Shown here piece by piece: positions 11,840-64,000 of a stretch of DNA of 64,000 nucleotides. The notes below the pieces were generated by a model, which did no database searches, was not told the origin of the DNA, and was given only the letters and a program-made list of their open reading frames with translations. A program made the position numbers and the translations under genes. How positions within the stretch are numbered: position 1 is the first letter of the stretch; each line of letters begins with the position of its first letter. Origin of the DNA: Fulvivirga maritima (GTDB lineage Bacteria > Bacteroidota > Bacteroidia > Cytophagales > Cyclobacteriaceae); contig NZ_CP089980.1 of the NCBI RefSeq assembly GCF_021389955.1, positions 6,257,001 to 6,321,000 of the forward strand, given 5' to 3'.

Positions 11840-11891
11840 CACCACAATAAGCTTAAAAACAAATACTATTCAATCTTTTAAAAACAAAAAT

Positions 11892-35953: not shown

Positions 35954-36451
35954 CTATTCAGGTGCGATTATAACATTACGAATTTCATTTGTTAACACCT
36001 TAATACCCTTTTGTTTATATGTAAAACCAAGTGTTGGTAGTGCTTTTATAATTTCTGTAGTGTAATCTTCTTTTGATACAGAAAATATGGGAGTACCATA
36101 AAAAATATCATCTTTCACTGAAAACCTCACTTCCTGATGAGGTCTTATATCAACCATCTTATTATCCATAAATCCAAGGGGAAAAAGTTCCTTTTCATGC
36201 TTCTCTCCTTCAAAATTGTAACTCAAATAGTAAGAGGCGCTTACAGGACTAATAGTAATCGTTTCACCTGACTTATTGCAAATAACTACTTTCATTTCCA
36301 CATAAGGTCCATTTTCATGGATATTAACAATATCTGGGTTAGTATTTTTTTTTATTCTGTTGACGCTAACACTGTCAATGTAAATACTGAGATCTTGTCC
36401 AAAAACTTGAGCACACAAAATTGTAGCAAATATTAACAAATAACTTCTCAT
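35954..36451 (-). CDS. Small exported protein following the RHS gene; candidate immunity protein
   Basis: 165 residues with a signal peptide (MRSYLLIFATILCAQVFGQ), so it is exported to the periplasm or beyond. The mature part is beta-rich (YVEMKVVICNKSGETITISP). No family was recognised. Its ATG overlaps the stop of the RHS gene by 4 bp, so the two are translationally coupled. In polymorphic-toxin loci the small gene directly after the toxin C-terminus usually encodes its antidote. Here that role is an inference from position only. An IS3 element begins 45 bp downstream. Confidence 0.65.
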   Translation of the reverse strand: MRSYLLIFATILCAQVFGQDLSIYIDSVSVNRIKKNTNPDIVNIHENGPYVEMKVVICNKSGETITISPVSASYYLSYNFEGEKHEKELFPLGFMDNKMVDIRPHQEVRFSVKDDIFYGTPIFSVSKEDYTTEIIKALPTLGFTYKQKGIKVLTNEIRNVIIAPE

Positions 36452-41295: not shown

Positions 41296-41303
41296 TATAG
41301 TAA

Positions 41304-47479: not shown

Positions 47480-48838
47480 TTAGCTGCTATAACGTCTAAA
47501 ACTAATAAAGCTAGCAACTCCTAGAAGTAAAATAGCTCCTATAAACGGCGATAGCAGCCTACCCCAGCTAACATCTTCCTCAAAATCAATATGTTCAGGT
47601 TTAAAACGGGACCAATCAACTTGTTCGGCCGTCTGATTTGAAAAGATTTTTGGGTATAAATACAGTCTGGTTTTTTCATGAAACCTTTCGGTATATCTCA
47701 AAAATTTGAAATGATTTTCCATACTTGAGCCCGCTAATGAATTAAATACGAGTTGCGCGTGTAGTGACGGAACCAAAAGAGACCAGTTTCTACTTACTTG
47801 TTCTCTGGTAATCACTTTACTTTCTAGCATTTCACTCTCTTGTCTAGATTCTACATCCCCCAAATTTTGCATAGCATAGTACCACAACCAATCACTCTTT
47901 ACATCTTCAGATGGATAACCATACTTGGTAAATTGAGGATATTGTTGGTAGAATTTCTCTACTGTTTTATGCTTATTGGTGTCCCACTTTTCATGATATC
48001 CGTCACGCTGCTTTATCATGGTGGTAAAGGCCTCAGGTATTGGATATTTATTTACAATAATATTATTAAGCACAGCAGGAACAAGAATTAAGAATATTAG
48101 CCAACAAAAAAGTAATGTAAGGGCATTAAAATTAGAGCTACGTCTCAAAGAGATGATTAAAGCGACTATAGCAAACCAGAAAGTGATGTAAAGTATAGCA
48201 GTTAATACAGTTTTGCTAAAAGCCAAATTATAAGGAATATCTAACACTAATGCCGCAATTAGGAATAGCATTAGGGCAACCGCATACAGTAAAAATGCCC
48301 GTACCGACATTTTAGAAAATAAATATCTCCACTTGTAAGCAGACATCACACTCACCATTCTCCATGTGCCCCCCTCTTCTTCCTCAGATAAAAGATTGTA
48401 GTTAAATGCAATAACCAACAGCGGAAATACATAGACAATAATAAAGCTTAAATCTAAATTCCCGTATAATAAGGTGGCAGGGTTAACTAGATCTGTATCG
48501 TACTTCTGACCTTCTAAGGCAAGAATAGTTACATTCTGAACACTAGGATTCACATCTTTTTGCCCAATAGAAAGTGCTGCCAAAGGATTGGTTTTATTTA
48601 CGATGGCAAACTTTAAATAATAGAGTAGCAAGCCTAAATTATCATTATGCAGCTCTACATTTCTTTCAATATGATCATACTGCTGTTGTACCACCTGCTC
48701 AGCTATTTCTTGTTGGCCCTCAAGAAATTGCTTTCCTATCAAAATACTGATAATGCCTAAAACCAATACCATAGACAACCCCAATTGACAAATTCTGGTT
48801 CTAATAAATTGTCTGAATATTAATACATATAATTTCAT
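47480..48838 (-). CDS. ABC-2-type transporter permease (DUF3526-like), second subunit
   Basis: 452 residues. An N-terminal helix (~15-35) is followed by an extracytoplasmic loop of about 100 residues. A helical bundle comes next (LSFIIVYVFPLLVIAFNYNL, then LFSEEEGG-like EEEEGGTWRMV, then further helices), then a second large loop and a final helix (LLSPFIGAILLLGVASFISF). The permease pair shares this architecture. Its ATG overlaps the stop of the preceding permease by 4 bp. With the ATPase at 50333-51028 it forms an inner-membrane export or extraction ABC complex of unknown substrate. Confidence 0.82.
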   Translation of the reverse strand: MKLYVLIFRQFIRTRICQLGLSMVLVLGIISILIGKQFLEGQQEIAEQVVQQQYDHIERNVELHNDNLGLLLYYLKFAIVNKTNPLAALSIGQKDVNPSVQNVTILALEGQKYDTDLVNPATLLYGNLDLSFIIVYVFPLLVIAFNYNLLSEEEEGGTWRMVSVMSAYKWRYLFSKMSVRAFLLYAVALMLFLIAALVLDIPYNLAFSKTVLTAILYITFWFAIVALIISLRRSSNFNALTLLFCWLIFLILVPAVLNNIIVNKYPIPEAFTTMIKQRDGYHEKWDTNKHKTVEKFYQQYPQFTKYGYPSEDVKSDWLWYYAMQNLGDVESRQESEMLESKVITREQVSRNWSLLVPSLHAQLVFNSLAGSSMENHFKFLRYTERFHEKTRLYLYPKIFSNQTAEQVDWSRFKPEHIDFEEDVSWGRLLSPFIGAILLLGVASFISFRRYSS

Positions 48839-50271
48839 ATTGCTGTAGCTTTTTTAGCTCCGTAAACTAAAAGAGTAATTGATAGTAATAACCAACCTAA
48901 AATAGATACGATAGAGACATTTACATTAGAAAGGGCTTCTGTGGTAGAGAGCTTCGTATACTGAAAATCAGAAAATGCCTTCCACTGATCCCTGCTTACA
49001 ATAGTGCCTTTTTCAGTATCTGTAGACTTAGAGCGTATGTATTTCATTTGGAGGGCATTCATTTTCTGAGCTAATTGATAACGATAGTCTTCTGCCTGCT
49101 GCTGAAAATGAACATAAGATTCAAAATCAGTTCCTGAAAGTGACATAGAGAGGTTTTTGAGTGCCAGAAAAGGATTAATAATAGAAAACCATTGTGTCAA
49201 TTGATTCTGCCTCCTATATTGATTCAATAAACTCTTATGGTGTTTACTATATATGTCAGCACTAATTTTCTCCCCCTGCCCCATTACAAAACCCCCATAA
49301 TTAAATGGTAGCTCTTCTACTGTTTTCACATGATTAGCCTTAAGCACCGAATCTTTCAAAGCTGAAAAATGAGGATCATTTGGATCATGGCTATCTCCAA
49401 ATTTCAGTACATCTTGCTCTATGGCGGCTCTAAACTCAAGTTTAGATGGAGTTGCATATACATAAGCTCCGATGGCCTGTGAGGTTTTTGGTACCAGAAT
49501 AACCATTAATAACCATAACCCTAATAACTTTACCAGAGCGTTTTTTGAGGAAGCACTTTTTAACGATATGTATATCGTAATGAAAGATAAAATAAAACAA
49601 AAGATTGTATAAGTGATGGTTATAACCCCCAGCCTTACCCAATCATCATGTGCTACATGTTCTTCAGTAAAGAATATCAAACAAATAGTGATTAAAAAGG
49701 GCAACCAAAATACCAAGGCTATACTTGCCAAGCCTAGTGCCCTACCGAATAAGATCTCCTCCCATTTGGCTCCCTGGGTAAGTAAAATTTTGAGAGTACC
49801 ATTTTCTCTATCAGCTACAATAGCCGAATACCCAATAAAGAAAATAACGAGAGGCAAAAGGGTTTGCAATACCATGGCCATACTCAGCTCACCAAAGCGC
49901 AATAGACCTGTGGAAAAGCTAGCTTCTGAAAAATTGACCACATTTTGCTTGTGAGCTTCCAGAAATACGGCATTACCTGTGAAACTTTCAACTCCAAAAT
50001 CAAAAATACTCAAAGGGTGTTTCAGCCTGAAGGCAAAAGTGCCAAAATGAGCCATTCTATGAGGATGCTTATCTGGGTTGTTTTCCCAACTTTCACGAGC
50101 CATTTGTTGATGATCAATCCTATAATGGTTTTGATCATAATAATCAACACCACTTCGGGCTGCTATTACCAACAATACTAACAACGTAAGTATTAACAGA
50201 TAAATGGTTTTTGACTTAAATACACCCAGACAAAACTGTTTTGCTATAATAAGCAATGTACCTTTATTCAT
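48835..50271 (-). CDS. ABC-2-type transporter permease (DUF3526), first subunit
   Basis: 478 residues, same architecture as the following permease: helix 1 (IYLLILTLLVLLVIAA), a periplasmic loop, then a bundle from ~130 (VLQTLLPLVIFFIGYSAIVA, DRENGTLKILLTQG as the cytoplasmic coupling segment). A second loop of ~150 residues follows, and a last helix (IVSILGWLLLSITLLVYG). DRENGT/EEEGGT motifs are typical of ABC-2 permeases. It lies 61 bp after the ATPase gene. Lantibiotic-immunity (LanFEG) transporters have the same ATPase plus two-permease make-up, but so do many others. Confidence 0.85.
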   Translation of the reverse strand: MNKGTLLIIAKQFCLGVFKSKTIYLLILTLLVLLVIAARSGVDYYDQNHYRIDHQQMARESWENNPDKHPHRMAHFGTFAFRLKHPLSIFDFGVESFTGNAVFLEAHKQNVVNFSEASFSTGLLRFGELSMAMVLQTLLPLVIFFIGYSAIVADRENGTLKILLTQGAKWEEILFGRALGLASIALVFWLPFLITICLIFFTEEHVAHDDWVRLGVITITYTIFCFILSFITIYISLKSASSKNALVKLLGLWLLMVILVPKTSQAIGAYVYATPSKLEFRAAIEQDVLKFGDSHDPNDPHFSALKDSVLKANHVKTVEELPFNYGGFVMGQGEKISADIYSKHHKSLLNQYRRQNQLTQWFSIINPFLALKNLSMSLSGTDFESYVHFQQQAEDYRYQLAQKMNALQMKYIRSKSTDTEKGTIVSRDQWKAFSDFQYTKLSTTEALSNVNVSIVSILGWLLLSITLLVYGAKKATAI

Positions 50272-50332
50272 ATTTGAAATATTACATGACTAGTGACAAT
50301 ATCACCTACTATTTACCTTAATAATGCTTTTA

Positions 50333-51028
50333 TTATATAGTTTTGAGGTACATGTCTTGTAACTGACTAGCACTTAGCCTCGCAGTTTCTCCAGAATGAA
50401 TAAGCTCCCCCTCTTTCATGATACCAATTTTGGAACCCACGTTTACAGCATTGAATATGTCATGAGTAGCCATAAAGATAGTTTTACCTTCAGATACCAG
50501 CTCCTTACAAATGGCTGTAAACTCAGCTGTGGCCTGAGGATCTAAACCTGAGGTAGGCTCATCCATAAATATTACCTGAGCATTTTTTGACAGTGCTATC
50601 GCTACTCCTACTTTTTGCCGCATGCCTTTAGAATAACCAGATAACTTTTTAGTATGATGATGCTCCTGAAGACCTGCTTTAGAAAGCAATGCAGATAACC
50701 ACCTTCTATTATGTTTATGACCTGACAGCCTGCTAAAAAATTCCAAATTTTCTAAGCCATTCAAATTACCATAAAGCTGTACCACTTCAGGAATATAAGC
50801 GATCATGCTATTGGTACTGCTATTTCTCATATTCACCTCTTCGCCATTTATTAAGACATTACCTCCTGAAGGCTTTAATAGGCCTAAAAAAAGATTAATA
50901 GTAGTAGTTTTACCAGCTCCATTTTGACCCAACAAACAATAAGTTTCTCCGGCAGACACCTTTAGGTTTAAGCCTTTAAGAGCATGATGCTCTCTATATT
51001 TCTTTGATAAATTGATTGCTTCTAGCAT
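50333..51028 (-). CDS. ABC transporter ATP-binding protein
   Basis: 231 residues. Walker A GQNGAGKTTT (34-43), Q-loop region YIPEVVQLYG, signature LSGYSKGMRQKVGVAIAL, Walker B VIFMDEPTSGLDP and a switch His in ATHD. It resembles the CcmA/NosF-type ATPases that pair with ABC-2 permeases. It is the first of three overlapping or close ABC genes, downstream of the TonB receptor on the same strand with a 224-bp gap that could hold an internal promoter. Confidence 0.92.
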   Translation of the reverse strand: MLEAINLSKKYREHHALKGLNLKVSAGETYCLLGQNGAGKTTTINLFLGLLKPSGGNVLINGEEVNMRNSSTNSMIAYIPEVVQLYGNLNGLENLEFFSRLSGHKHNRRWLSALLSKAGLQEHHHTKKLSGYSKGMRQKVGVAIALSKNAQVIFMDEPTSGLDPQATAEFTAICKELVSEGKTIFMATHDIFNAVNVGSKIGIMKEGELIHSGETARLSASQLQDMYLKTI

Positions 51029-51252
51029 AAGCCTTAACAGTTTAATATCTATATGTGGAAACTACCTAAAGACTTATCTATTGGATATTTCCCATTTGAA
51101 AAATTCATATTAGGACAATGTTAATGTTAGAAAGCATTAAATGCAACACATTTGCATTTAATATTAAAAAAGGTGAGATGGTCTTATGAGCGGTAAGGGC
51201 TATATCGGTATTTAACAGGTAGCAATCAATATACGCCTTTTTTTAACTCATT

Positions 51253-53644
51253 TTAAAGTGAACACTTTATAGATACCTGAATATTCCTTCCTTGTTCGGG
51301 TAGATTAAGGATTCTATACCTACTCATGTTATTGAGATAATACTTATTAGTAAGATTTTTAACATGAAGCTGGCATTCAAACAGCTGATTAAACAGCTGA
51401 AATTCAACACCTAAAGCCATATGAACCAGATAATGTCCAGGCGTTCTTTTTTCATTTTGATCAACTCTGTTTTGATCCGAAAATGTTTCAGCTGATAACC
51501 TTATCCATGGTTTGGCTCTTTCACTTCTTACATTAAATTGGTATTCCCAGTCACTAAGAATATGAAAGGGTGGAGTAAATGGCAATGGATAATTGAGATC
51601 CAAATTCTTATTCCAAACATACTCCATGGTAAGCATCCAAGTGAGGTTGTTAAACACCAAACTGGTGGCACTTAGCTCCCCTCCAGTAATGTTTACCCTT
51701 CCCTGAGAATACTCATAAACCTGCCCTGCTTCTGGTAAGGTGGAAAAATTAGAAGAGGGCCTCAAGTAAATGTAGTTACTGAAATTATAATAAAACACGG
51801 CTAATGTAAGGTCAATCCTTTTTTGATGATTATGCCAGGAAATATCCTGCAGCACTCCTTTTTCCACATCCAATTCAGAGTCTCCCACTTCGTGTCTGAA
51901 AGTACCATGATGCACTCCATTAGAAGCCAACTCAGGGACTGAAGGGAATCTAAAAGCAGTACCAACATTATACTTAAAACTGTTCTTAGGTGAGGCTTGA
52001 AAACCCACCCCTGATGATAACGTAGGAATGCTATATGATTTACTAATATGCGTATTTCTTATAGAATAATCGGTTATGGAAGCATCATCATTGTATATGG
52101 GCAACCTTGTTTCCTGTGCCTCTTGTCTGGCTAAATCCCACCTTGCTCCCAATTGCCAGTAGAGTTTTTTTGCTATTCTGAGATCCTGTAGTACATAAAT
52201 ACCTGTCTGCTTCACTTCGTATTCAGGAATAAGCGACTCAAAGCCATCTATGGTGTTGGTTTTTACTTGCCCGTTACTGCCTACAAAAAGATGCCAATTT
52301 TCTAAAATATCATAGTTCCATCGGAGATTATAGGAATAGGTTTTTAAGCTTAACTGTAATGCTAAAGTTCCCTGTGGCGTAGGCCCCTGACCATGAGAAT
52401 GTGGATAAGAATGTTCTTCTCTTAAGTTATGTTGATAACCAATATCTATCATCCAGGTACTTTTATTGTTAAAAATAACTGTGTTAGATATCAACTTCCA
52501 ATGATCTATATTTTGATAAGGTAGCTGAATATCCCTATTATTACCGTCATCCTGCAGTTGATAACTTCGAGGCATACCAAAAGCTCCCGAAAAAAAGCCT
52601 ACCTTCTGTCCATAACGTGACAAATACATAGTAGTATAACCCCATTTTCTTTTGATGCCTGTATGAACTGAATAATCTAACTCATTCCCCGCCGTATTTT
52701 TTAATTTTTGATCAATAATGGGTAGTGTATATGAATTATAAAGAAATTCATTAGCCGGAACCTGGTAGTCGGCAAAATCCTGCCACGTTACTCTTCCCTT
52801 GAGCCAAAGACCATTTTTTACGGTTTCTACTGAGGCAGATGAACCTATCAAGCTATTATTAGATTTATAGTTCACCATGATGTCTCCTCTTAATGTATCA
52901 TGAGGGGAAATGGTTGGTTTCTTAATATTAATCACCCCTCCTACACCATCAGATCCATAAATTACTGATGATGGCCCTTTGATAACCTCTAACTCTTCAA
53001 CTCCAAACTGATCTAACTCCAAGCCGTGATCTACACCCCATTGCTGCCCTTCCTGCTTAATGCCGTATTCATTAACAATTACTCTATTAAAGCTCATTCC
53101 TCTTATTACGGGCTTAGAAATACCAGTTCCCGTATTTATAGAACTTACACCAGGTAGCTTCTCTATAGTGTTCATTAAAGTATTACCCTGGTTTTTCATT
53201 AAAAACTGTCTGTCTACCTGATCTGATGTAAGCGTGAATACCAAAGGAGCATGAGTATGCACCCCATGAGCATCTGCAGTAATTTCTACAGCTTGTAATG
53301 TTTCTGTTTTTTCAATCAGTATAAAATCTTTTTTTGGTGGAATAACTGACTATATCTACAGTATCACTTTGACTCTCATACCCTAGCAATCTCACTACAA
53401 GAGTATGCCTTCCTGAAGATAAATTATGAATAGCATATGCCCCTGATTGATCAGTAATTACAGTTTTACCACTAGTAAGATCTTGAACCACAGCATTTTC
53501 TAATTTCTGATTAGAACTATTCAATACCACTCCATTAATCATAAATTCGGTTTGACTAAATGCTGGTTTGAAGACCATCAGAAAAATGACAATAATATTA
53601 GCCGAAAAACAGACTTTAAGTTTAGAGCGACTCACTTTAATCAC
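51253..53644 (-). pseudogene. TonB-dependent outer-membrane receptor, frameshifted near the N-terminus
   Basis: The first frame (53312-53644) has a signal peptide and a CarboxypepD_reg-like domain (INGVVLNSSNQKLENAVVQD). At a T7 run (53329-53335, plus-strand view) the frame shifts. Past the shift the sequence reads DFILIEKTETLQAVEITADA, then HGVHTHAPLVFTLTSDQVDR, a plug (SSVIYGSDGVGGVINIKKP) and a barrel to the C-terminus (NIQVSIKCSL). Removing one base gives exactly 797 codons, a normal receptor. The N-terminal region and neighbouring DUF4625 protein are rich in His-x-His, suggesting a metal-related ligand. The gene lies 8 bp into the end of the DUF4625 gene. Confidence 0.88.
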
Positions 53645-54434
53645 TAATAATCACCTCTAAACTCTCTTCAGTTACATTACCTGTGGCATCATACACTTTT
53701 ACCATAAATGTATATTCACCACTAGTGGGTAACGTAGGAAAATCAAAATTGAAGTTATAGGTAAATTCCTCTCCATCTGCTTGAGTGAAATAATATTGAG
53801 CAGCTGTATATGTTTGTCCAGAAGGGCTTATATAAGTTACATCTACTCTGCCTCCGTATAGAAGCTCATTATCTGATATTGCATAGGAAAATTCTACTGG
53901 CTCAGTTTTTACTAACTGGAGTGGAGGCTCTGATGGGTTTATCAATTGCATATTAGGAGCTTGAATATCTCCTACATTTTTTACCTGTAGGCTATAAAGT
54001 ACTGCTTCAGCTTCATTTCCCTTCTGATCTAATAGCTGAAGCATAAAATGATAATTACCCGCCTGCACATCCTGAGGCACGATTAACCTTTCATCTACAG
54101 TAGCTTCTGAGCCTTCTACTTCCTCCACTTTTAAGACATACCAGGGAGCTTGGTTAATTCTCCCATGTGTGTGGCAATCAAAATTGCTATGCAAATCTAT
54201 TTTATATTGAGAAAGACCATTTTGTCCTTTTAGATTAAAAGTTATGGCTAAAGTATCTGCAGAGGTTAGAGCTATAGACCGAGGATCATTCTCTCCACAT
54301 ATCTCAAGGGTTTCCACATGAGGATGAACTTGTACAACGTTAATCTCCGGCTGTTCAGGTAAAGGGGTTTCAGAATCACCACATGAAAAAATAATAGCAG
54401 TAGATAGAATGCAAAGGATAACTATATTTCTCAT
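53637..54434 (-). CDS. DUF4625-type lipoprotein
   Basis: 265 residues with lipobox IFSC (Cys 18). Two Ig-like/beta-sandwich halves: the first contains QYKIDLHSNFDCHTHGRINQ with a CHTHG cluster, the second ends GEYTFMVKVYDATGNVTEES. The pattern matches DUF4625 lipoproteins of Bacteroidota, which typically sit beside TonB receptors. The function is unknown. The His and Cys cluster could bind a metal, which is inference. It is 1 bp from the preceding gene and overlaps the receptor by 8 bp, so the genes are tightly coupled. Confidence 0.8.
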   Translation of the reverse strand: MRNIVILCILSTAIIFSCGDSETPLPEQPEINVVQVHPHVETLEICGENDPRSIALTSADTLAITFNLKGQNGLSQYKIDLHSNFDCHTHGRINQAPWYVLKVEEVEGSEATVDERLIVPQDVQAGNYHFMLQLLDQKGNEAEAVLYSLQVKNVGDIQAPNMQLINPSEPPLQLVKTEPVEFSYAISDNELLYGGRVDVTYISPSGQTYTAAQYYFTQADGEEFTYNFNFDFPTLPTSGEYTFMVKVYDATGNVTEESLEVIISD

Positions 54435-54435
54435 A

Positions 54436-55347
54436 TTATTTTATGATTATTTTGTTCATATAAATTCGATCTGTTTGAGTAATAGCACGCACTATGTAAC
54501 TGCCCTGAGGCCAATCATTAGTATTCACACACTCCTTTACTCCATTCTTTGAGACTTGATAAAATAACTTTCCTCTCAAGTCATAAATTTCTAACTGAAT
54601 AATTTCCGTATCTGACGCTATGCAAAAGTGTTCTCTTGCTGGATTTGGGAATAACTTTATATCCACATTATTCACCAGGGGATCTATTGCTGTAATGGTG
54701 TTAAATTCTACTATTGGATATAGTGCAAAATGAGTAGCAATAGGAGTGAAATTCTGAGTATAAAAATCTTTCCAATCTTCTTTAGTATGGTTATGTGCCT
54801 GTACAGCGTTTCTACCAAAACTATTTAGATCCTGTTCTGAGCGAGACCCTTCTTCTCCCATCATTAGACCGAGCGTATCTCCATCATAGCCGCCGTGCAA
54901 ATAATCTAAGACATTGAAAGTAACAAAAAAGGAATCCTTTACAGCTATGGCAGTATTAAAAGCTACATGCATGGCTTTTCCGCTAAGGTCAAGGTCTTTA
55001 TAGAGAACTTGTTTACCTCCCAGTCTATTACCGGGAAGGGCATTAGCCGCCACATTGTAAACATTGAATTCCACGTAATTATTAGGGTGGTTATAGTTGC
55101 CAGAAAGGTGTACAACCATTCCTTTTACTACACCTGAGCCTTCTATATAATACTTCTCCGCAAATTGTTGACGGTAAGACGAGTTTTGCCCTAATATATA
55201 CCCCCATTCTCCGGGGTTAGAATACTGTGGAGCATATAGCTCCACAGTATCAGAAAGGTTAGTTAATGTATCTAAGTCTTGAGCATTTACTAAGGACGTC
55301 AAGCTTATAGCCAATACTACAAACAGCAATTTAATGGTTCTATTCAT
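54436..55347 (-). CDS. T9SS-sorted secreted protein of unknown function
   Basis: 303 residues. Signal peptide (LLFVVLAISLTSLVNAQ), a beta-rich body (~25-215), then a type IX secretion C-terminal sorting domain beginning IKLFPNPAREHFCI and ending YMNKIIIK, so it is destined for the cell surface or medium. The body has several His-containing segments (VQAHNHTKEDW). No enzymatic motif. Tightly packed between the propeller gene (4 bp) and the DUF4625 gene. Confidence 0.8.
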   Translation of the reverse strand: MNRTIKLLFVVLAISLTSLVNAQDLDTLTNLSDTVELYAPQYSNPGEWGYILGQNSSYRQQFAEKYYIEGSGVVKGMVVHLSGNYNHPNNYVEFNVYNVAANALPGNRLGGKQVLYKDLDLSGKAMHVAFNTAIAVKDSFFVTFNVLDYLHGGYDGDTLGLMMGEEGSRSEQDLNSFGRNAVQAHNHTKEDWKDFYTQNFTPIATHFALYPIVEFNTITAIDPLVNNVDIKLFPNPAREHFCIASDTEIIQLEIYDLRGKLFYQVSKNGVKECVNTNDWPQGSYIVRAITQTDRIYMNKIIIK

Positions 55348-55351
55348 AGCT

Positions 55352-57490
55352 TTATCTGTTAATGATTAATTTGCTACTCTGCACCTCGCCTGCCAACCTC
55401 AGTTGTATTACATACACTCCATTTTCTAGCTCTGGCGTGATATCCCATAGGTACTCTCCATCCTGAAAATTAATATTAGTATTCACTACTTTATTTCCAT
55501 TAAGACTATTTACTATCAGCACAGCAGGCCCACTGTAAGAAGTCTGCAACTTAAAATGAATTCTGCTTTTAGCTGGATTAGGATATATTACTGTTTCCAA
55601 CGTAGTCACACCTCGGCCTAAGTCTTCTACACCAGTAATGTGCTCACCGTAGAAAAGAATGTTGCCTGCAGTACCTACTGCCCAACCTTGTCCCTGATCA
55701 TTAAAATAAATATCTAAAAGTGTATTTCCTGAAGGTGTGGGTTGGATATTCCAGTTTTTCCCGCCATCATCAGTTGCAAGTACATTCCCTGAAGTAGTAA
55801 TATAACCATGGTTAGCATCTGAAAAGTATACAGAATTAAGCGTAGCAGATACTCCGCTTACCTGAGGAATCCATAGACCTCCTCCATTTTCTGTATAGGA
55901 AATAATACCTGACCTTCCTACCGCATATCCAGTTGAGCTGCTTACAAAGAATACATCATTCAAATGAGAAAGAACACCTGGATCTTGCAATTCCCAATTA
56001 TATCCGCCATCGGTAGACATGGCTAATAGCCCAGTGTTACCCACTACATAACCAGTATCTGCACTTACAAAATGGACAGCATTAAGGTTGTCTTCTGCAG
56101 AAATATTACCAACACTCCAGTTAGCACCTGCGTCAGAAGTTTTTATGATAGTACCTGTAGCTCCTGTTAAAATAAGTTCTTCTCTAGACCATAAATACAT
56201 ATCGCTAAAATTGCCCTCATAACCTACTTCCACTTGTTGCCAATTATTGCCTCCATCTTCCGTTTTTAGTACTATTCCATCATTTCCTGCAGCCCAACCG
56301 TGGTTGTCATCCACAAATTGTACGCAATGTAAGGCGCTATTCACTGGAGTACTCATCACCTGCCATTGCTGACCTTTATCTGTGCTATGAAAAATTTCGC
56401 CTGCACTGGCCGCTATATATAAATGATCATTAGCATTGCTGATGCTATACAAATCATTAATGGAGTCAATAGGCAAAACCTTCTCAAAATCATTTCCATT
56501 ATGCGTTACTAATATATCGTAGGAAGCCACTGCAATTCCATTACCCTCAGTATCAAATTGAATGAAAGACTTTCGGCTGCCACCATAATCACTTTCACAA
56601 TTACTACTCCAAGTGGCTCCACCATCTTCAGTAGTGTACAGACACTCAAAGCTGCTGACCCATCCTCTCATATTATCATAAAAATACGCTTCAGTGAAAT
56701 AATCTGAAGACTCTGCGCTTCCCATAAGTACAGACCAAGTGGCGCCTGAATCCGTAGTTTTTATAATATATCCGCTAGGGCCAACTATAAACCCTGTACT
56801 TTCATTAACAAAATAAGCTCCTTCATAAAAACCACCTGCAGTAGCTGGTAAAGAGATGGTGTTCCATGTAGTTCCTCCGTCATAACTCCTAAAAAAGGTA
56901 TTGTCCCAGCCTGCTGCATAAACAGTATCCTGGCTTACCGCTTTACAGAAAAAGAGGCCATAAAAAGAGGCTCCTGCAGTTAATGGAAGTGTAATTTTAG
57001 ACCAATCTTCCCCTCCGTTTTCCGTTTTAAATAACACATTCTCTACATAGCCTGCATCACCCACAGCGTAGCCTATTTGTTCGTTATAAAAATAAATATC
57101 ACGCAAGGTTGGGCTTTCTGCATTTTCGTACTGTAAAGTCCAATTAGTTCCTGCATCTTCTGTAACCCAGATTTGGCCATTGTCAGTAACAGCCCAACCC
57201 TTAGATTCATTAATAAAATCTATCTCTCTTACCGTAGCTTCTGTAGGCAGATGAGACACTTCCCAAGACCCTCCAAAATCAGAGGTTTTTATAAACTGTC
57301 CTTTTGTTCCAGAAACATAAAAAGTCTCTTCACTGATCCAAGCTACATCAAAATGACTATTTCCTACGGGAAATGGATGCTGCCATTTCCAACTGTTATC
57401 CTGCGCTTGAATATGATTCCAGTGAATAAATAGAAAGGCGGTTAAAAAAGATAGCTTAAGGTATTTATTAAAGAGTAGAGTTTTCATCAT
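55352..57490 (-). CDS. T9SS-sorted Ycf48/BNR-repeat beta-propeller protein
   Basis: 712 residues. Signal peptide, then about a dozen repeats of the type GWAVTDNGQIWVTEDAGTNW, GYAVGDAGYVENVLFKTENG and GWAAGNDGIVLKTEDGGNNW, the Ycf48-like/BNR signature of six- to eight-bladed propellers; the count suggests two propellers. The C-terminus is a T9SS sorting domain (TVIYPNPAKSRIHFKLQTSY ... SSKLIINR). Such proteins are surface-exposed binding scaffolds. Its ligand is unknown. It is the second gene of the operon after the small lipoprotein. Confidence 0.88.
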   Translation of the reverse strand: MMKTLLFNKYLKLSFLTAFLFIHWNHIQAQDNSWKWQHPFPVGNSHFDVAWISEETFYVSGTKGQFIKTSDFGGSWEVSHLPTEATVREIDFINESKGWAVTDNGQIWVTEDAGTNWTLQYENAESPTLRDIYFYNEQIGYAVGDAGYVENVLFKTENGGEDWSKITLPLTAGASFYGLFFCKAVSQDTVYAAGWDNTFFRSYDGGTTWNTISLPATAGGFYEGAYFVNESTGFIVGPSGYIIKTTDSGATWSVLMGSAESSDYFTEAYFYDNMRGWVSSFECLYTTEDGGATWSSNCESDYGGSRKSFIQFDTEGNGIAVASYDILVTHNGNDFEKVLPIDSINDLYSISNANDHLYIAASAGEIFHSTDKGQQWQVMSTPVNSALHCVQFVDDNHGWAAGNDGIVLKTEDGGNNWQQVEVGYEGNFSDMYLWSREELILTGATGTIIKTSDAGANWSVGNISAEDNLNAVHFVSADTGYVVGNTGLLAMSTDGGYNWELQDPGVLSHLNDVFFVSSSTGYAVGRSGIISYTENGGGLWIPQVSGVSATLNSVYFSDANHGYITTSGNVLATDDGGKNWNIQPTPSGNTLLDIYFNDQGQGWAVGTAGNILFYGEHITGVEDLGRGVTTLETVIYPNPAKSRIHFKLQTSYSGPAVLIVNSLNGNKVVNTNINFQDGEYLWDITPELENGVYVIQLRLAGEVQSSKLIINR

Positions 57491-57507
57491 ATCAATTCGT
57501 TATATTT

Positions 57508-57933
57508 TTATTGCTTTTGAAACTGAAAGGCATAAACACCGTCTAGTCCATTTAACTTGCCACTTGAATGAGTGCTACTAAACATAAACGTCATTGTTAA
57601 AGCGCTTCCGGTCACTTGAAAATCAATGACGATACCATCTCCCCTTTCCATCTGATTAAGACTACCTTCGACAAAGTGCCATGATCCGCTTTCTGGCCAA
57701 ATTTGAGTTTGAGTATTTGTAGTTATGTATGTTTCTTCGGTAAATTCAATTTCAAAATCATCCCAGCCATCCTGATCGGTTTCATTAAGCGTCACTTGTG
57801 TTGCTCTCCAAGAGCCTTTAAGCAATTCTATTTGCACCTCTTCAGGATTGGGAGTTCCCGAATCATCATTGCTACATGATGTAACAAAAAACACAAAAAC
57901 AACAAGAAAATAGAGTAAGTAAGGGTTTTTCAT
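57508..57933 (-). CDS. Lipocalin-like small lipoprotein, first gene of the TonB/ABC operon
   Basis: 141 residues with lipobox FVTSC (Cys 20) followed by an Asp/Ser-rich linker. The body starts LLKGSWRATQVTLNETDQDG and is a beta-barrel-like sequence typical of lipocalin-like Bacteroidota lipoproteins. The start codon lies 18 bp from the first palindromic operator. The operon continues for seven further genes on this strand. Confidence 0.75.
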   Translation of the reverse strand: MKNPYLLYFLVVFVFFVTSCSNDDSGTPNPEEVQIELLKGSWRATQVTLNETDQDGWDDFEIEFTEETYITTNTQTQIWPESGSWHFVEGSLNQMERGDGIVIDFQVTGSALTMTFMFSSTHSSGKLNGLDGVYAFQFQKQ

Positions 57934-57951
57934 ATTTTTAGATTAATTTTA

Positions 57952-58022
57952 ATTGCAACATTATTGCAATTATATAAATGATTTATCATTATTGCAACAA
58001 TGTTGCAGTTATATTGATGATT
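57952..58022. promoter_or_regulatory. Two tandem 7-1-7 palindromes between divergent operons
   Basis: Two 32-bp copies, 27 of 32 positions identical, start at 57952 and 57991 (period 39 bp). Each contains a 7-1-7 inverted repeat: TGCAACA-T-TATTGCA centred on 57961, and TGCAACA-A-TGTTGCA centred on 58000; the second is perfect. The 7-1-7 geometry is that of Fur-family (Fur, Zur, PerR) operators. They fill the 89 bp between the lipoprotein start (57933) and the exporter start (58023), so one repressor could control both operons. The regulator identity is inference. Confidence 0.7.
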
Positions 58023-60197
58023 ATGAAATTCCCCTTTGTAAGACAGCTAGACGTAATGGATTGCGGCGCAGCATGCCTCAGCATGGTAGCCAAATACCAT
58101 GGAAGGTCTGTACCATTACAAAAGCTGCGACAAATGTCAGACATAGATAGGGATGGTGCTTCACTAGCCGGAATAATGCAAGCGGCAGAAAAAATACACT
58201 TCAGGTCTTTCGCAGCTTACCTTACAGAAGAACAGCTCGTAAAAGCTCCACTACCTATTATTATTCACTGGGATCAGGTACATTATGTAATACTTTATAA
58301 AACCAAGAACCAACATTTTTATATTGCCGACCCCGGTAAAGGAAAGGTTAAGCTTAAAAGAGATTCATTCATGAAGCACTGGAAGATAACTGAGAAAGAC
58401 TCAGGGGTCGCTCTTCTTCTTGAACCGCTACCTTCATTTTATAAGCAACCTTATAACCAAGAGAAAAATAACATAGGTTCTTTATTTCATTACTTAAGAG
58501 GATATAAAAAACTCTTTACACAAGTATTTTTAGGTCTGTTTTTAGCTACCCTGCTTGGAATGGCTTTACCTTTTCTTACTCAAGCGATTGTAGACACGGG
58601 CATACAAACAGAAAATCTCAACTTTATATACCTTATCTGCTTGGCACAACTCATGGTATTCTCCGGTCGAATGGTGGTGGAGATGATACGAACCAGGGTA
58701 TTACTTCATATTGGTAGTCGCTTAAGCATATCTTTATTGGCGGATTTTTTAGAGAAACTCATGGCACTTCCCGCCTCATTTTTTGATGCCCGCAAAACAG
58801 CGGATATTATGCAAAGGATGCAAGACCATAAACGAATTGAAATTTTCTTTACAAAATCTGTAATAGCCGCCATTTTTTCATCTATCAATCTGATTGTCTT
58901 CTCTATAGTCTTAGTGATTTACAGTTTCAAAATAGCGCTTATATTTTTCATAGGTACAATATTAAGCACCATTTGGATTTTTGGTTTCATGAGCCGCAGA
59001 AAGCAAGTTGATTATGGAAAGTTCTTACAACAATCGGAGAATCAAAATGCACTTATTGAAATAGTGCAGGGCATGTTCGAAATTAAACTCAATGGAGCTG
59101 AGAAAGAAAAAAGCTGGGACTGGCAAGAAAAACAAGCTCGTTTATTTAAACTCAACTTTTCAAGTTTAAACATAGAACAATCACAACAAGGTGGCACTCT
59201 TTTTTTAGGAGAAATAAAAAACATCCTGATTATAGCTGTATCCGCCAGTCTGGTACTTAAAGGTGAACTTACCTTAGGAATGATGTTATCCATTTCATAC
59301 ATCACTGGACAGCTAAATAACCCCGTGGTGCAATTCATTGATTTTTTCAGAAATTGGCAAGATGCTCAAATAAGTTTCAAAAGGATCAATGAGATTTTTT
59401 TGATGGAAACAGAGGATAGAGAAAAGCCTTCTCTGGCTGATTTTAACTCTATATCTAATTCTTCTCTAAGTGTATCTAACATCACTTTTAAATATAATAA
59501 AGCACAAAATAAAGCCGCGCTAAGAAATATTTCTCTCAATATCCCTTCAGGAAAAGTTACTGCCATTGTAGGAGCAAGTGGCAGTGGTAAAACCACATTA
59601 ATAAAGCTATTACTCAAATTTATAGAACCCGATAATGGCAGCATCCACCTGGGCAATATTCCCTTAGCCGGTATAACCGCTTCTTCCTGGAGAAAGAAAT
59701 GTGGAGCCGTTCTACAAGGGGGCTACATTTTCTCTGATACAGTAGCCAATAATATCACCTTCGGCTCCGATCTGGTAGATCATGCACGACTACAAAAAGC
59801 GGCCCAGCTAGCCAATGTTGACTCCTTCATATCATCATTGCCTTCGGGCTATCAAAGTGTAATAGGCATTGATGGAATTGGGCTTAGTGAAGGTCAAAAA
59901 CAGAGAATACTTATTGCCAGGGCTGCTTATAGAGATCCTGAATTCATTTTCTTTGATGAAGCCACCAATTCTTTGGATGCTAATAATGAGAAAGAAATAA
60001 CTGAAAACCTAAGCGATTTTTTTAAAGGAAAGACAGTAGTTATAGTAGCACACAGACTAAGCACAGTGAGGCATGCGGATCAAATAATTATGTTAGACAA
60101 GGGCCATATCATAGAACAAGGCTCTCATGATGACTTGATTAGGCTGGAAGGTGGGTATTATCATTTGATTAAAAACCAATTGGAGCTAGGGCTATGA
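58023..60197 (+). CDS. C39-peptidase ABC exporter for a double-glycine-type peptide
   Basis: 724 residues from ATG 58023 (MKFPFVRQLDVMDCGAACLS). An ATG 15 codons upstream would put the operator inside the gene and is rejected. C39 protease domain: Cys14 in MDCG, His87 in DQVHY, Asp103 in ADPGKG. The six-helix ABC membrane domain spans ~155-440. The ATPase has Walker A GASGSGKTT, signature LSEGQKQR, Walker B FIFFDEATNSLDA and H-loop VAHRLST. This class cleaves leader peptides behind a GG-type site and exports the core. It overlaps the HlyD gene by 4 bp. Confidence 0.93.
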   Translation: MKFPFVRQLDVMDCGAACLSMVAKYHGRSVPLQKLRQMSDIDRDGASLAGIMQAAEKIHFRSFAAYLTEEQLVKAPLPIIIHWDQVHYVILYKTKNQHFYIADPGKGKVKLKRDSFMKHWKITEKDSGVALLLEPLPSFYKQPYNQEKNNIGSLFHYLRGYKKLFTQVFLGLFLATLLGMALPFLTQAIVDTGIQTENLNFIYLICLAQLMVFSGRMVVEMIRTRVLLHIGSRLSISLLADFLEKLMALPASFFDARKTADIMQRMQDHKRIEIFFTKSVIAAIFSSINLIVFSIVLVIYSFKIALIFFIGTILSTIWIFGFMSRRKQVDYGKFLQQSENQNALIEIVQGMFEIKLNGAEKEKSWDWQEKQARLFKLNFSSLNIEQSQQGGTLFLGEIKNILIIAVSASLVLKGELTLGMMLSISYITGQLNNPVVQFIDFFRNWQDAQISFKRINEIFLMETEDREKPSLADFNSISNSSLSVSNITFKYNKAQNKAALRNISLNIPSGKVTAIVGASGSGKTTLIKLLLKFIEPDNGSIHLGNIPLAGITASSWRKKCGAVLQGGYIFSDTVANNITFGSDLVDHARLQKAAQLANVDSFISSLPSGYQSVIGIDGIGLSEGQKQRILIARAAYRDPEFIFFDEATNSLDANNEKEITENLSDFFKGKTVVIVAHRLSTVRHADQIIMLDKGHIIEQGSHDDLIRLEGGYYHLIKNQLELGL

Positions 60198-61473
60198 AAG
60201 AGAAAGCTAAAATCCACCCACTTGAAGACATGGTAGAAATTATTCCAACATGGTACGAGAGCTACGGTATAAGTATTCTCTTCGTGGTTGTCATCTTTTT
60301 TATTTCAATGGCTGCCATAATTAGATACCCTACCGTGTTAAAGTCTGATATAGATATTGCGACCATAACACCTCCCGTTAAAGTTTTCTCAAGAGTGCCT
60401 GGTAATTACATACCTCTTGTAACAGAAGGATCTGCCGTACAACTTCATGAACCGTTAGGAATAATAGACAATAATATATCTTACAACGATTTGCAAGGTG
60501 TCAAAATCATATTGCAGCAAACATTAAAAGATAGTTCCTATGCTCGACTGCAACACTTGAATTCTATACTAATCCTAGAAGACATGCAGGACCTGTATTC
60601 ACAAATATTTACATCTTTACCAAAACTATCAATACCTGATTCAGTCTCCCTATCAGAAACAACTTCAGTCTAATATAAAGGCTCAAATGCAACAGGCAGC
60701 TGAAATTGAAAAAATACTCTCTTCTCAAAAAGACCTTCTATACAAGCAGCAAGAAATTTATAACAGCAAAAGGCAAAGAGACTCACTTATTCTCACCTTC
60801 CAGGCCATTAGTGAGCAGACCATGGAACTATCTGAAGTAGAATGGATTGCTAAAAAAAAATAACGTCAGAGATCTTGATTTAAAAATATCACAGAACGTA
60901 CTAAAAAAGACAGAATTGCATGAAACATTTCTAGCCAATGAAAAAGATATGGCTTCTGCTCTTTTTCAAAACCATATCAACCTTCAGCAAGCAATTAAAA
61001 AAATGCTTGCGGCCATTTCAGAATGGGAAAGAAAATACATTATAAAAGCTCCTATTGCCGGAAGCGTTACTTATTTAAAGAAATTTGCCACCAATCAATT
61101 CATTACCCCAGATGAGGCTATTGCATCAGTAGTACCTGACCATGGCACGTACACTGGCAAAGTGAGCCTCCCAGTAAATGGATCTGGTAAGGTAAAACCA
61201 GGCCAGACCGTAATTATTCACCTTTATCATTACCCGTCTCAAGAATATGGCACATTAAAAGGCAAAGTTGAAGAGCTTTCACTTGTTCCTAATGAAGGAG
61301 ATTACCTAATATCCGTTTCACTAGACCATCAATTACGCACTAGCTACTTGATAGATATTCCTTTTAAACAGCACTTAAGCGGCTCTGCCCATATTATCAC
61401 AGAGGACATGAGCTTGCTTGCCCGGCTTTTTGGACACATAAGATCATTATTTGACAACAAAATCAACCTTTAA
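60194..61473 (+). pseudogene. HlyD-family membrane-fusion adaptor, doubly frameshifted
   Basis: The first frame (60194-60673) has a cytoplasmic tail, a membrane helix (GISILFVVVIFFISMAAIIR) and the barrel start (TPPVKVFSRVPGNYIPLVTE). A +1 shift between about 60630 and 60665 leads into a coiled-coil frame (KAQMQQAAEIEKILSSQKDL). A second +1 shift at an A9 run (60852-60860) leads into the remainder (KNNVRDLDLK..., lipoyl-like KAPIAGSVTYLKKFATNQFI, barrel ...GTLKGKVEELSLVP). Deleting one base at each site gives exactly 426 codons. It would bridge the C39 exporter to an outer-membrane channel. Confidence 0.85.
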
Positions 61474-61478
61474 AACCT

Positions 61479-64000
61479 ATGTATCTTTATTCCTCTTTAC
61501 TTCACAGAGTTTCACCTTTAAAAATTAATGATATTGAAAGTTTTAAATCAAAATCCTTACATACTTTCTCAGCTAAAATTAAATCTCAAGAGGATGCTCT
61601 CCTGTATTGTAGCGAACGACTTACCGATATTCTTTTTGAAAAAATTCAAAACTGCCAAGATTCAAAAAAGAGAAATAAACTTCTGAACTGCAAAAGGTCA
61701 ATATTCAATCAGAAATATCTTAAAAAGAAGGAAACGAATCTGCTTTTTAATTCATTACCTCCAGATGCTACTGATGTACTAGAACAATACATAAAGCTTC
61801 AGCAAAATATTGATCACTTGATACAACAAGGTCATGGGTTGTATAAAGATGAGCTATTAAAATCCAGGGCAGCAATTCAAAATATGATAAAAAAAAATGA
61901 AGCTTTTCACCAATCTTTACAGCTATCTTCCCAAAGTCTATTTACTCAATTAAATCCCTATCTAGCATCTCCTGTAGATAGGCTGAGTAAAAAGCAGTCA
62001 AATGCAGAGCTATCATTTTTAAAATACCTGACAAGACAATACACTAAAACGTCTCCATTTAGCCGCTTCACATGCCTAGCCATTGGAGATTCTACACTAA
62101 CTACTAACAACCAAATTAAGGCATCTGCAAGACTCAATAATTATATATATGCTTATGTGTTAGGTTTATGCATGCAAGTTACTGACGTGGCTGCACACAT
62201 TCCCATTAAACTGAACCCCTCTTTAACCCCTGAAGCTACCCATTATACCTTTCTTGTCAATTTTAACAATGTCGAAATTTTTCAAACAATAGAGAGAAAT
62301 AGCGCTATCGATCTTATCATTACTTGTGTAGATGACTTGGTTGACATCAGTTCAATAAGCCAAAAGTTAATATCCTTTTTTCCTGATTCTACAGCAAATC
62401 AACTGCAGAACTACCTGACAGGATTATTGGAGGTTGGTATATTAGAAACCAATTTAAATATATCCGGTATTGATCCTGACTGGCCTTCAAAATTCATATC
62501 ATTCCTTACCAAGCTAAGTCATAAAACCTCTAAGATTGAGGGATTATTAAATGGCATGCTCTTTCTACAACAAGCAGCCAATCAACTGAGTGATATTAGT
62601 ACTTCTGATAGGCAAATTCTTCTGAGCAAAGCCCTGGAAATATTTAAAGGTGCAGCCAAGTCATTCTGTCAAATGAATCACCTTCCATTCTCAGAGGGTG
62701 AAGATAACCGAATAGCCAAAAAGCAGTTTTTAGAAACATTAGAAAATGACATCTCTTTCAAAAAGAGATACTTTAATGGATTTTACTTTACAGAAGAAAA
62801 TTTATTTTACGAAGATGCCTCCATCACTATAAATTCTGCCTTAGGCATAGATGAGATTAGGCCCCTAGTCAAGAACCTTGATCTACTCTTACAAGAATTA
62901 TCGCCACTTGCATTTGAGAATATTAATCAAGAAAAAATGACAGCCTTTTTTAATCACTATTATGAAAATTATGAGAGTGTACCATTAATAAAATTCTATG
63001 AGAGTTATTACAAAAATTATGTAAAGCCGAACAAGAAAGGTGAGATTTCGGCCATTTCTAGCTCTATTGATCTTTTGCAAAAAGAACAATTTGCTATAGA
63101 AAAGGACTATAAAGATAAACTAAAAGAATTACTGCTAAATAAGAAGGAAGTGGAAGGTGTTATTAATTTCACTTTAGATGAAATTAAAGGGTTAAACCTC
63201 CAAAAATCAGAACCAATAGCATATTCTAAAGCGGCACATATCCAATTTTATAAAAATAATAAGGGAGATATACAAGGAGTAGTAAACAGTGTATTTACAG
63301 GATATGGAAGAGGTTATGGTCGCTTTTTACACCTTTTCCCTAAACAAATAACGGAAGAACTTAATCGCATCAACAAAGAGATTCTCTCTGATTATACACC
63401 TGCAGAAGTAAGAGACGCCTCATCTTTTAATGCCAACCTACATCCTTCTCTTTTACCTCATGAAATTATTATTCCAGGTGGTAATCCTAGCCTCTCTTCT
63501 GAGCAACAAATTTCCATTGAAAATATCATTGTGAAGCATAACCATGGTAAAGTCTCTCTAGCTCATGCACTTACTGGTAAAACTATACTCCCATTTGATC
63601 TTTGCTTGCAGACCTCCAGAACGAGATCAGAACTTTATCAGCTACTCACCTCATTTTCACAAAAAACTGCTAATTCCATTTATTCATTTGTTAACCACAT
63701 ACATAATATCATAGGAGAACAGGATATTAACCATGTTATTATGATACCTAGAATAGCTTTTGAAAATGACTTGGTACTATCGAGAAAATGCTGGAAAATA
63801 CCCAACCAATCACTTCCTGAAAATAGCCATTTAGTAAGCGAATTTGATTATTATCATGCATTGAATAAATGGAGAGGTCAATATGGCATTCCGAAAGCAT
63901 GCTTCTTATTCATTACTCCTACTCATAATCTTGCCTCCAAAAATTCCACTTTCGATGATTATAAGCCCCAATATATTGACTTTGAATCTCCTTTATTAGT
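61479..64000 (+). CDS. Lantibiotic-dehydratase-family protein (LanB-like, glutamylation domain), truncated by window end
   Basis: An 840-codon open frame from ATG 61479 (YLYSSLLHRVSPLKIND), 5 bp after the HlyD stop and still open at the edge. Around residues 190-200 is TKTSPFSRFTCLAIGD, the R/K-T-SPF-x-x-F-T landmark of the lantibiotic dehydratase N-terminal domain, followed by a long helical/beta region (TGYGRGYGRFLHLFPKQI, LHPSLLPHEIIIPGGNPSLS). LanB enzymes glutamylate Ser/Thr from Glu-tRNA and then eliminate to dehydroamino acids. Whether the elimination domain is fused or separate cannot be seen. Placement after the exporter genes marks a ribosomal-peptide modification cluster. Confidence 0.88.
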   Translation, partial: MYLYSSLLHRVSPLKINDIESFKSKSLHTFSAKIKSQEDALLYCSERLTDILFEKIQNCQDSKKRNKLLNCKRSIFNQKYLKKKETNLLFNSLPPDATDVLEQYIKLQQNIDHLIQQGHGLYKDELLKSRAAIQNMIKKNEAFHQSLQLSSQSLFTQLNPYLASPVDRLSKKQSNAELSFLKYLTRQYTKTSPFSRFTCLAIGDSTLTTNNQIKASARLNNYIYAYVLGLCMQVTDVAAHIPIKLNPSLTPEATHYTFLVNFNNVEIFQTIERNSAIDLIITCVDDLVDISSISQKLISFFPDSTANQLQNYLTGLLEVGILETNLNISGIDPDWPSKFISFLTKLSHKTSKIEGLLNGMLFLQQAANQLSDISTSDRQILLSKALEIFKGAAKSFCQMNHLPFSEGEDNRIAKKQFLETLENDISFKKRYFNGFYFTEENLFYEDASITINSALGIDEIRPLVKNLDLLLQELSPLAFENINQEKMTAFFNHYYENYESVPLIKFYESYYKNYVKPNKKGEISAISSSIDLLQKEQFAIEKDYKDKLKELLLNKKEVEGVINFTLDEIKGLNLQKSEPIAYSKAAHIQFYKNNKGDIQGVVNSVFTGYGRGYGRFLHLFPKQITEELNRINKEILSDYTPAEVRDASSFNANLHPSLLPHEIIIPGGNPSLSSEQQISIENIIVKHNHGKVSLAHALTGKTILPFDLCLQTSRTRSELYQLLTSFSQKTANSIYSFVNHIHNIIGEQDINHVIMIPRIAFENDLVLSRKCWKIPNQSLPENSHLVSEFDYYHALNKWRGQYGIPKACFLFITPTHNLASKNSTFDDYKPQYIDFESPLL

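Follow-up and report, generated by a model that had tools for sequence, protein, structure and literature searches.

We analysed a window of 64,000 nucleotides from Fulvivirga maritima (C1:6257001-6321000, where C1 is NZ_CP089980.1, the single contig of a 6.39-Mb genome), whose right end carries two divergent operons of a candidate lanthipeptide-based zinc uptake system. Gene identities come from open reading frame (ORF) calling and from Pfam and NCBIfam profile matches, positions are those of the window unless stated otherwise, and the literature used consists of excerpts of PMC7268733, PMC9248904, PMC2770081, PMC6103462, PMC4176598 and PMC10957091. The minus strand encodes two DUF3526/ABC2 permeases resembling ZnuH/I (47480-48838, PF12040 at 8.6e-23, and 48835-50271, PF12040 at 7.3e-34), a ZnuG-like ATP-binding cassette (ABC) ATPase (50333-51028, PF00005), a TonB-dependent receptor lying here in two frames (51253-53644, PF00593/PF07715), a DUF4625 lipoprotein (53637-54434, PF15418 at 4.9e-31), a surface protein with the Por_Secre_tail of the type IX secretion system (T9SS; 54436-55347, PF18962), a T9SS-tailed propeller of the YCF48 type (55352-57490; PF14870, PF18962 and an alignment) and a small lipoprotein-like ORF of no family (57508-57933). 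On the plus strand follow a C39 peptidase/ABC exporter (58023-60197, start inferred; PF03412, PF00664, PF00005), an HlyD-type accessory protein in three frames (60194-61473, PF13437 in its last part) and LanBn, the glutamylating half of a split LanB (61479-64000, PF04738, i.e. Lant_dehydr_N, at 4.1e-33), which is cut by the window edge.

All eleven genes, eight minus and three plus, lie where the original prediction, made from the letters of the window, had placed them, and some of its details need revision. The ABC ATPase and its two permeases are present and can now be assigned to the DUF3526 kind. The label "lipocalin-like" for the small lipoprotein has no backing, as this ORF has no Pfam match at 0.001 and one sub-threshold DUF4969 match (0.024). 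The divergent gap is 89 bp as claimed if the exporter starts at the ATG at 58023; the first in-frame ATG, at 57978, gives 44 bp. The receptor and the HlyD protein are correctly identified, and neither is a single ORF in this assembly. PADLOC returned nothing for the four proteins tested.

The remaining lanthipeptide genes lie directly past the right edge of the window, where the original prediction had proposed to look for a precursor with a GG leader, a LanC or a SpaB_C-type protein; all three are there. We read them in a 19-kb stretch, L002, which starts inside the window (window coordinate = L002 + 56999). LanBn (905 amino acids in full) ends at L002:7197, and is followed on the plus strand by a SpaB_C-type LanBc of 274 amino acids (L002:7187-8011; PF14028 at 1.9e-37, TIGR03891), so that PF04738 and PF14028 sit on two separate genes, and by a LanC-like protein of 618 amino acids without zinc ligands (L002:7995-9851; PF05147 at 3.1e-47). 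Convergent to this unit, on the minus strand, lies the gene of a 63-amino-acid precursor peptide (L002:9871-10062), whose start was set at the ATG that aligns with the starts of its relatives. Its leader matches NF038180, the NCBIfam model of pinensin family lanthipeptides, at 8.6e-12 (44.8 bits against a cut-off of 24), and ends in GG, after which comes the core AASHPTHTEDTDTHETCTCDASKTSLEINP with three His and two Cys in 30 residues. A FolE-like ORF (L002:10671-11348) adjoins the precursor and is preceded by a weak box-like site with three mismatches.

Both operons and the precursor gene share one palindromic operator. Two putative Zur-type boxes stand 39 bp apart in the divergent gap, at 57953-57969 (TTGCAACATTATTGCAA) and 57992-58008 (TTGCAACAATGTTGCAG), and a third (L002:10158-10174) stands 95 bp before the precursor ATG, with the consensus TTGCAACAwTRTTGCAr. 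Allowing at most two mismatches, we obtained four matches in the window (two sites on both strands) against 0.47 expected, a number reached by one of 100 shuffles. A search of the whole genome with the 16-base core and one mismatch gave nine matches at seven places and none for the reversed control. Three of the seven places belong to the present locus. Of the others, one falls inside the first-start extension of an ORF for a TonB receptor with a His-rich N-terminal part, one precedes a TonB receptor gene and the two DUF4625 lipoprotein genes behind it, one precedes an ABC ATPase and an FtsX-type permease with a His-rich loop, and one, at C1:3514494, has no ORF of 100 amino acids nearby.

The same pattern marks zinc-type genes in related genomes. 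Six relatives gave 43 matches (30 loci), compared with six for the reversed control. We inspected the flanks of 15 of the 30 loci by eye and found 12 beside zinc-type genes, i.e. a TonB receptor, lipoproteins with or without DUF4625, the T9SS module, an ATPase like ZnuG, GTPases of the CobW type or a MerC-like gene; three of the 15 (L091, L100 and L103) are the T9SS module by which their genomes were chosen. The remaining three, L088 (inside a gene), L092 and L097, are not next to evident zinc-type genes. One of the relatives, UBA6059, has a box-bearing zinc-type island (L127, L128 and L043; G391:C18:208000-254656), in which several ABC units stand together with genes for CobW-type GTPases and His-rich lipoproteins and one for a Fur-family protein; no pinensin-type precursor is encoded in its genome.

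A Zur-like regulator is also encoded in the genome. Three Fur-family proteins were found, one of which lies beside a peroxiredoxin gene and another beside PurA. The third (C1:1650459, 136 amino acids) shares 38-42% identity with the Fur-family proteins of the islands of three relatives and 22-28% with the other two, and among solved structures E. coli Zur matches it best, at 6.8e-10. We infer that the palindrome is a Zur box because of its zinc-type neighbours and the likeness of the regulator to E. coli Zur; our literature search found no Bacteroidota Zur box. That the locus forms one regulon had been predicted from the window; with the operator now seen at both operons and at the precursor, we regard a single zinc regulon as highly probable on this sequence evidence.

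Lanthipeptide genes and zinc-type genes are paired repeatedly across genomes. We know five box-bearing lanthipeptide clusters, namely the present one and those of the genomes here called G016, G130, M361 (Fulvivirga sp. M361, NZ_VKDC01000028.1) and G1065, which span at least four GTDB families and two orders. The two operons, predicted to belong together, are neighbours in G016, G130 and M361, and in variant form in G1065. DUF4625, receptor and T9SS genes accompany four of the five clusters, and the fifth (G1065) has DUF3526 permeases and a PiuA/CntO-like receptor instead. In G016, a precursor with two dyads has beside it the genes of a Fur-family protein, a CobW GTPase and a PRA-CH protein, along with FolE, which alone of these was named by eye; on the other side lie LanC, LanBc, LanBn, a one-frame HlyD gene, the C39 exporter and two boxes, from which the propeller, the T9SS protein, DUF4625 and the receptor diverge. 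M361 is arranged likewise, except that it has a small lipoprotein and a Fur-family gene and that its receptor lies on the other strand; a Zur-like gene is part of the same island in both genomes. In G130, DUF4625 and the receptor stand behind a box on one side, the propeller and the T9SS protein lie beyond the lanthipeptide unit, and this unit has perfect boxes at both ends. G1065, from another order, encodes the exporter, LanBn, LanBc and LanC, with one box at the exporter gene and two dyads preceding the precursor; divergent from these are two permeases of the DUF3526 type (one of them checked with Pfam) and a TonB receptor, which among solved structures matches siderophore receptors best (2.1e-36), then CntO (3.3e-27). 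FolE, MerC-like, PurA, peroxiredoxin, integrase and FecCD genes and the TonB receptors of M361 and G130 were named by eye from translations, while Pfam was run on CobW, PRA-CH and FUR of G016, on DUF3526 and ABC proteins of UBA6059, on DUF3526 of G1065 and on one DUF4625 protein of M361.

Precursors of this family were counted in several sets of genomes. NF038180 matched 17 precursors in 15 of 390 genomes of the order, and further surveys found precursors in 4 of 395 genomes of the phylum, 6 of 19 of the G130 family and one of two of the G016 family; a profile built from four precursors matched 5 of 395 genomes of the class. These sets overlap, and include the present genome, G130 or G016. Four genomes of one genus (G142, G154, G103 and G192; loci L030, L031, L032 and L033) encode 57-amino-acid pinensin-type leaders that end in KTAGG followed immediately by a stop, i.e. 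leaders without a core.

The operator goes largely with one type of core. We compared 24 precursor loci and found the strict dyad, GCAAC-N3-GTTGC, only in the present locus, G016, M361 and G130. The first three share a PTHTE core, and G1065, found by the precursor profile, has both the longer motif PTHTExTDxH and two dyads, so that this motif is kept from the present genome to another order. Overall, the dyad precedes all four PTHTE-core precursors versus one of 25 others, namely that of G130. The 25 are 21 loci plus four ordinary ones from the class-wide profile search; one of them, L050, could not be examined upstream, as its contig ends 41 bases from the precursor; the loci L024 and L051 are short, and 5 were read of the 19 loci besides our own that the four-precursor profile gave. 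With the stricter 17-base consensus, the M361 site is weak (five mismatches at best within 300 bp, as good in 21 of 200 shuffles), while its dyad is exact. The cores of this type are 30-33 amino acids long, compared with 32-90 in 13 other parsed cores. His content does not separate the box-bearing precursors from the others.

The cyclase of this locus appears to have given up its own zinc. Aligned with LicM2 (6st5), LanC has Ala, Ala and Asn in place of its zinc ligands, Cys, Cys and His. In an alignment of 14 rows the ligands are lost in the present LanC and in those of G016, M361 and G1065, and kept in ten rows, i.e. G130 and nine rows from eight other genomes; the loss thus affects four of the five box-bearing clusters versus none of the nine other LanCs. 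We found no LanC ORF in L119 and L126. In an unrooted tree, a branch with 100/98 support separates the four ligand-free LanCs from the rest, G130 among them, and since the four group in this way the loss may have been a single event. A single origin of the whole box-bearing type, G130 included, is still conceivable from these sequences. The LanBn tree, which bears on the same question, has 11 rows, G1065 not among them; L122 was left out for its length (485 amino acids), and L124 and L126 gave no match. In LanBc, the eliminating half, the conserved Arg, His, Tyr and Glu columns are kept in 11 rows, and therefore dehydration should work. Leader and LanB place the locus in the pinensin family, of which its cyclase is a variant. 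A zinc-free cyclase is possible by analogy, because class III cyclases likewise lack these zinc ligands according to the excerpts of PMC7268733. Alternatively, cyclisation may have been lost and the Cys residues remain thiols.

In part, the uptake genes resemble zinc importers. The best solved match of the receptor is Neisseria ZnuD (4rdr) at 3.9e-15, and the receptor adjoins the lanthipeptide unit behind a shared promoter. It also occurs elsewhere without the peptide; it does not need it, because the module and box are found in precursor-free genomes. No DUF3526 match other than these two permeases occurs in the genome, and among 14 control genomes only Caulobacter has DUF3526, in a gene that may be znuH or znuI. 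An ATPase like the present one lies at L128:9992-10684 beside DUF3526 permeases in the UBA6059 island. In Caulobacter, Zur represses the receptor gene znuK together with an ABC-2 ATPase and two permeases, ZnuGHI (excerpts of PMC4176598), and by this analogy our ABC unit is better compared to ZnuGHI than to lantibiotic immunity. The motif KxDxHxNFDCHxH of DUF4625 is invariant in six of six aligned sequences, and the T9SS surface protein conserves DYxH and HxH, again in six of six; we met no mention of DUF4625 in the open-access literature searched. A T9SS profile matched 359 of 390 genomes of the order, mostly through the common C-terminal sorting domain, and real homologues were taken to be those in nine genomes with values no worse than 1.1e-49, after which the list continues at 2.6e-13. 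In one stretch (G072:C20:12444-19334), three matches to the T9SS surface protein lie within 7 kb, one of them followed by a Fur-like ORF (by eye) that has box-like sites near its start.

We propose, with somewhat more confidence than doubt, that the locus encodes a lanthipeptide zincophore which is under Zur control and whose cyclase works without zinc. The genes with their precursor, the operator common to them, the conserved neighbourhood and the loss of LanC ligands are observed; binding of the operator by Zur, export, zinc affinity of the peptide and its recapture by the receptor are what these sequences suggest. At low zinc, Zur would leave its operators, and the two divergent operons and the convergent precursor gene would be switched on. 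LanBn and LanBc would then dehydrate Ser and Thr of the pinensin-family precursor, whose core bears His, Asp/Glu and Cys, and LanC without zinc of its own would close the product or merely chaperone it. The C39/HlyD exporter would cut after GG and secrete the peptide, which would bind scarce zinc outside the cell, probably through the conserved PTHTExTDxH. The T9SS surface proteins and the DUF4625 lipoprotein might help to pass zinc or the zinc-peptide to the TonB receptor, with the ZnuGHI-like ABC unit acting at the inner membrane. Zinc is the metal we favour, given the zinc-type genes beside the box. Iron, heme or copper is less likely, as the box has CobW-type, DUF3526 and DUF4625 genes for neighbours and Zur is the best match of the regulator.

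Several observations weigh against this proposal. Two heme-receptor NCBIfam models (8.7e-33 and 1.2e-32) rank ahead of the ZnuD model NF038289 (5.3e-28) on our receptor, all far below cut-off (98 bits versus 950 for ZnuD), and the receptor of G1065 is of siderophore type, both of which would suit iron or heme. The structural match to ZnuD is limited to residues 12-169. The second-best match of the Zur-like protein is a Fur protein (2.8e-08). The reversed-pattern control was not empty in the relatives, with G016 having two matches versus one for the control, and the sites of the G016 cluster carry two or three mismatches to the pattern. The pairing of genes varies as well: within the 50 kb read, G1065 has no HlyD, DUF4625, T9SS pair or ABC ATPase, and in the stretches read we saw no ABC unit of our type beside the G016, G130 and M361 clusters, so that the unit is complete beside the present cluster only and G1065 has permeases without the ATPase. 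The T9SS protein, DUF4625 and receptor occur with a box in UBA6059, Dawidia soli and a Cryomorphaceae metagenome-assembled genome, none of which has an NF038180 match, while 3.9-kb loci of distant T9SS relatives in G197, G142, G192, G103 and G154 show no dyad-type box. There is no box at L025 or L051, although their pinensin-type cores bear four His. G130 has a different core and a normal LanC and does not join the other four; we group it with them because of its box and neighbours, not its core, and lanthipeptide and zinc module may have come together on two separate occasions.

The broken frames of the receptor and HlyD also count against a working system in this strain. The receptor is split over 53312-53644 and 51253-53262, the frame being lost at a run of 7 bases somewhere from 53329 to 53348, and HlyD into 60194-60673, a middle frame and 60847-61473, with breaks near 60626 and near a 9-base A run at 60852. 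Relatives have a single-frame receptor (794 amino acids in G016) and a one-frame HlyD (427, 426 and 452 amino acids in G016, M361 and G130). Sequencing error is likelier than real decay, because two of the three breaks fall at homopolymers and a GH2-like glycosidase gene (by eye) is also split elsewhere (L013:10024-11346 and 11353-11877). Real breaks would cripple the copy of this strain; the relatives, too, carry the case for the system.

An alternative hypothesis could be that the peptide is a zinc-controlled antimicrobial, i.e. a pinensin-like lantibiotic that, set free when zinc is scarce, kills neighbours and frees their zinc, with uptake co-regulated, the peptide not being the carrier, and the ABC unit perhaps giving immunity. 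Pinensins are antifungal in the excerpts of PMC7268733 and PMC9248904, which also speaks against a zincophore, and regulation alone cannot tell a carrier from a weapon. Our ABC ATPase matches the lantibiotic-protection model TIGR03740 at 2.6e-41, below its cut-off (142 bits versus 310) and behind a drrA model. However, the similar unit of UBA6059 lies in a genome with no pinensin-type precursor, the clusters of G016, G130 and M361 show no such unit in the stretches read, and on these grounds we do not prefer a LanFEG-type immunity transporter; moreover, the cores are short and PTHTExTDxH is conserved across orders. We therefore consider the antimicrobial unlikely, while keeping it as the chief rival. 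The original prediction had left a metallophore and a self-protected bacteriocin as its two leading readings; the former is now favoured, with zinc as its metal.

The peptide could also be a surface zinc buffer that stays cell-bound, attached to DUF4625 or the T9SS proteins, and from there enriches zinc near the receptor. These partners, with their conserved His motifs, accompany four of the five clusters, and there is a known case, ZepA, of zinc uptake under Zur by way of a secreted protein (excerpts of PMC10957091). C39 exporters, however, secrete their products, and the cluster of G1065 lacks DUF4625 and the T9SS pair as described above, which leaves this reading improbable. That the genes are unrelated neighbours merely sharing a box, the peptide being a signal, agrees with the zinc module being found without the peptide, but is very hard to reconcile with a pairing that recurs across families and orders, with a box that stands at the precursor too and with a LanC that has lost its zinc ligands.

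A lanthipeptide zincophore would differ from the known metal carriers. Methanobactin is a ribosomal modified metal-fetching peptide, for copper and made by different enzymes. Known zincophores include pseudopaline, staphylopine and coelibactin. They share Zur-controlled biosynthesis and TonB-dependent return with the system proposed here (a general statement in the excerpts of PMC10957091) but are not lanthipeptides, whereas the product here would be ribosomal. The secreted polypeptide ZepA of Anabaena, Zur-linked and serving zinc uptake, is a folded protein, not a modified peptide (PMC10957091, excerpts). The Caulobacter ZnuK/ZnuGHI system resembles ours in having a TonB receptor, an ABC-2 ATPase and two permeases under Zur, and differs in its operator sequence; the excerpts of PMC4176598 name no peptide, DUF4625 or T9SS partners. 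Pinensins, class I lanthipeptides of Chitinophaga, have the same family of GG leader, a C39 exporter, a split LanB and a LanM-related LanC (excerpts of PMC7268733), and compared with them the present locus has the Zur-type box, the short PTHTExTDxH core, the pairing with zinc-type operons and a LanC without zinc ligands.

We speculate that lanthipeptide zincophores are a new class of metallophores, in which a zinc-free LanC lets the whole route run in a zinc-starved cell; this wider claim is tentative, its chances falling just short of even. In the boldest form, the cyclase would no longer cyclise, Ser and Thr would be dehydrated, the Cys of HETCTC would be free thiols forming a zinc site with the His of PTHTExTDxH, and the zinc-peptide would be recaptured through a ZnuD- or CntO-like receptor. 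No paper linking a lanthipeptide to zinc uptake was noticed among the titles and abstract openings listed from the open-access literature, which does not prove that there is none. If true, a ribosomal and hence genetically programmable zinc carrier would join the metallophores, and a function would be given to a branch of orphan Bacteroidota lanthipeptides, to DUF4625 and to the T9SS partners. It would also be a case of a biosynthetic enzyme shedding its own zinc inside a zinc-starvation operon. Zinc-sparing paralogues offer a likeness for such a zinc-free LanC.

The surroundings of the locus have further features. About 6 kb past the precursor, at L002:16383-17558 and 17839-18018, an integrase-like ORF (by eye) lies beside a tRNA-Pro and a tRNA-Ser gene and possibly marks the edge of a mobile island; Rfam gave two tRNAs on L002. 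To the left of the zinc locus, window positions 36448-44624 hold two very large minus-strand ORFs of 1622 and 1106 amino acids, the latter of which resembles RHS/YD-repeat proteins by eye.

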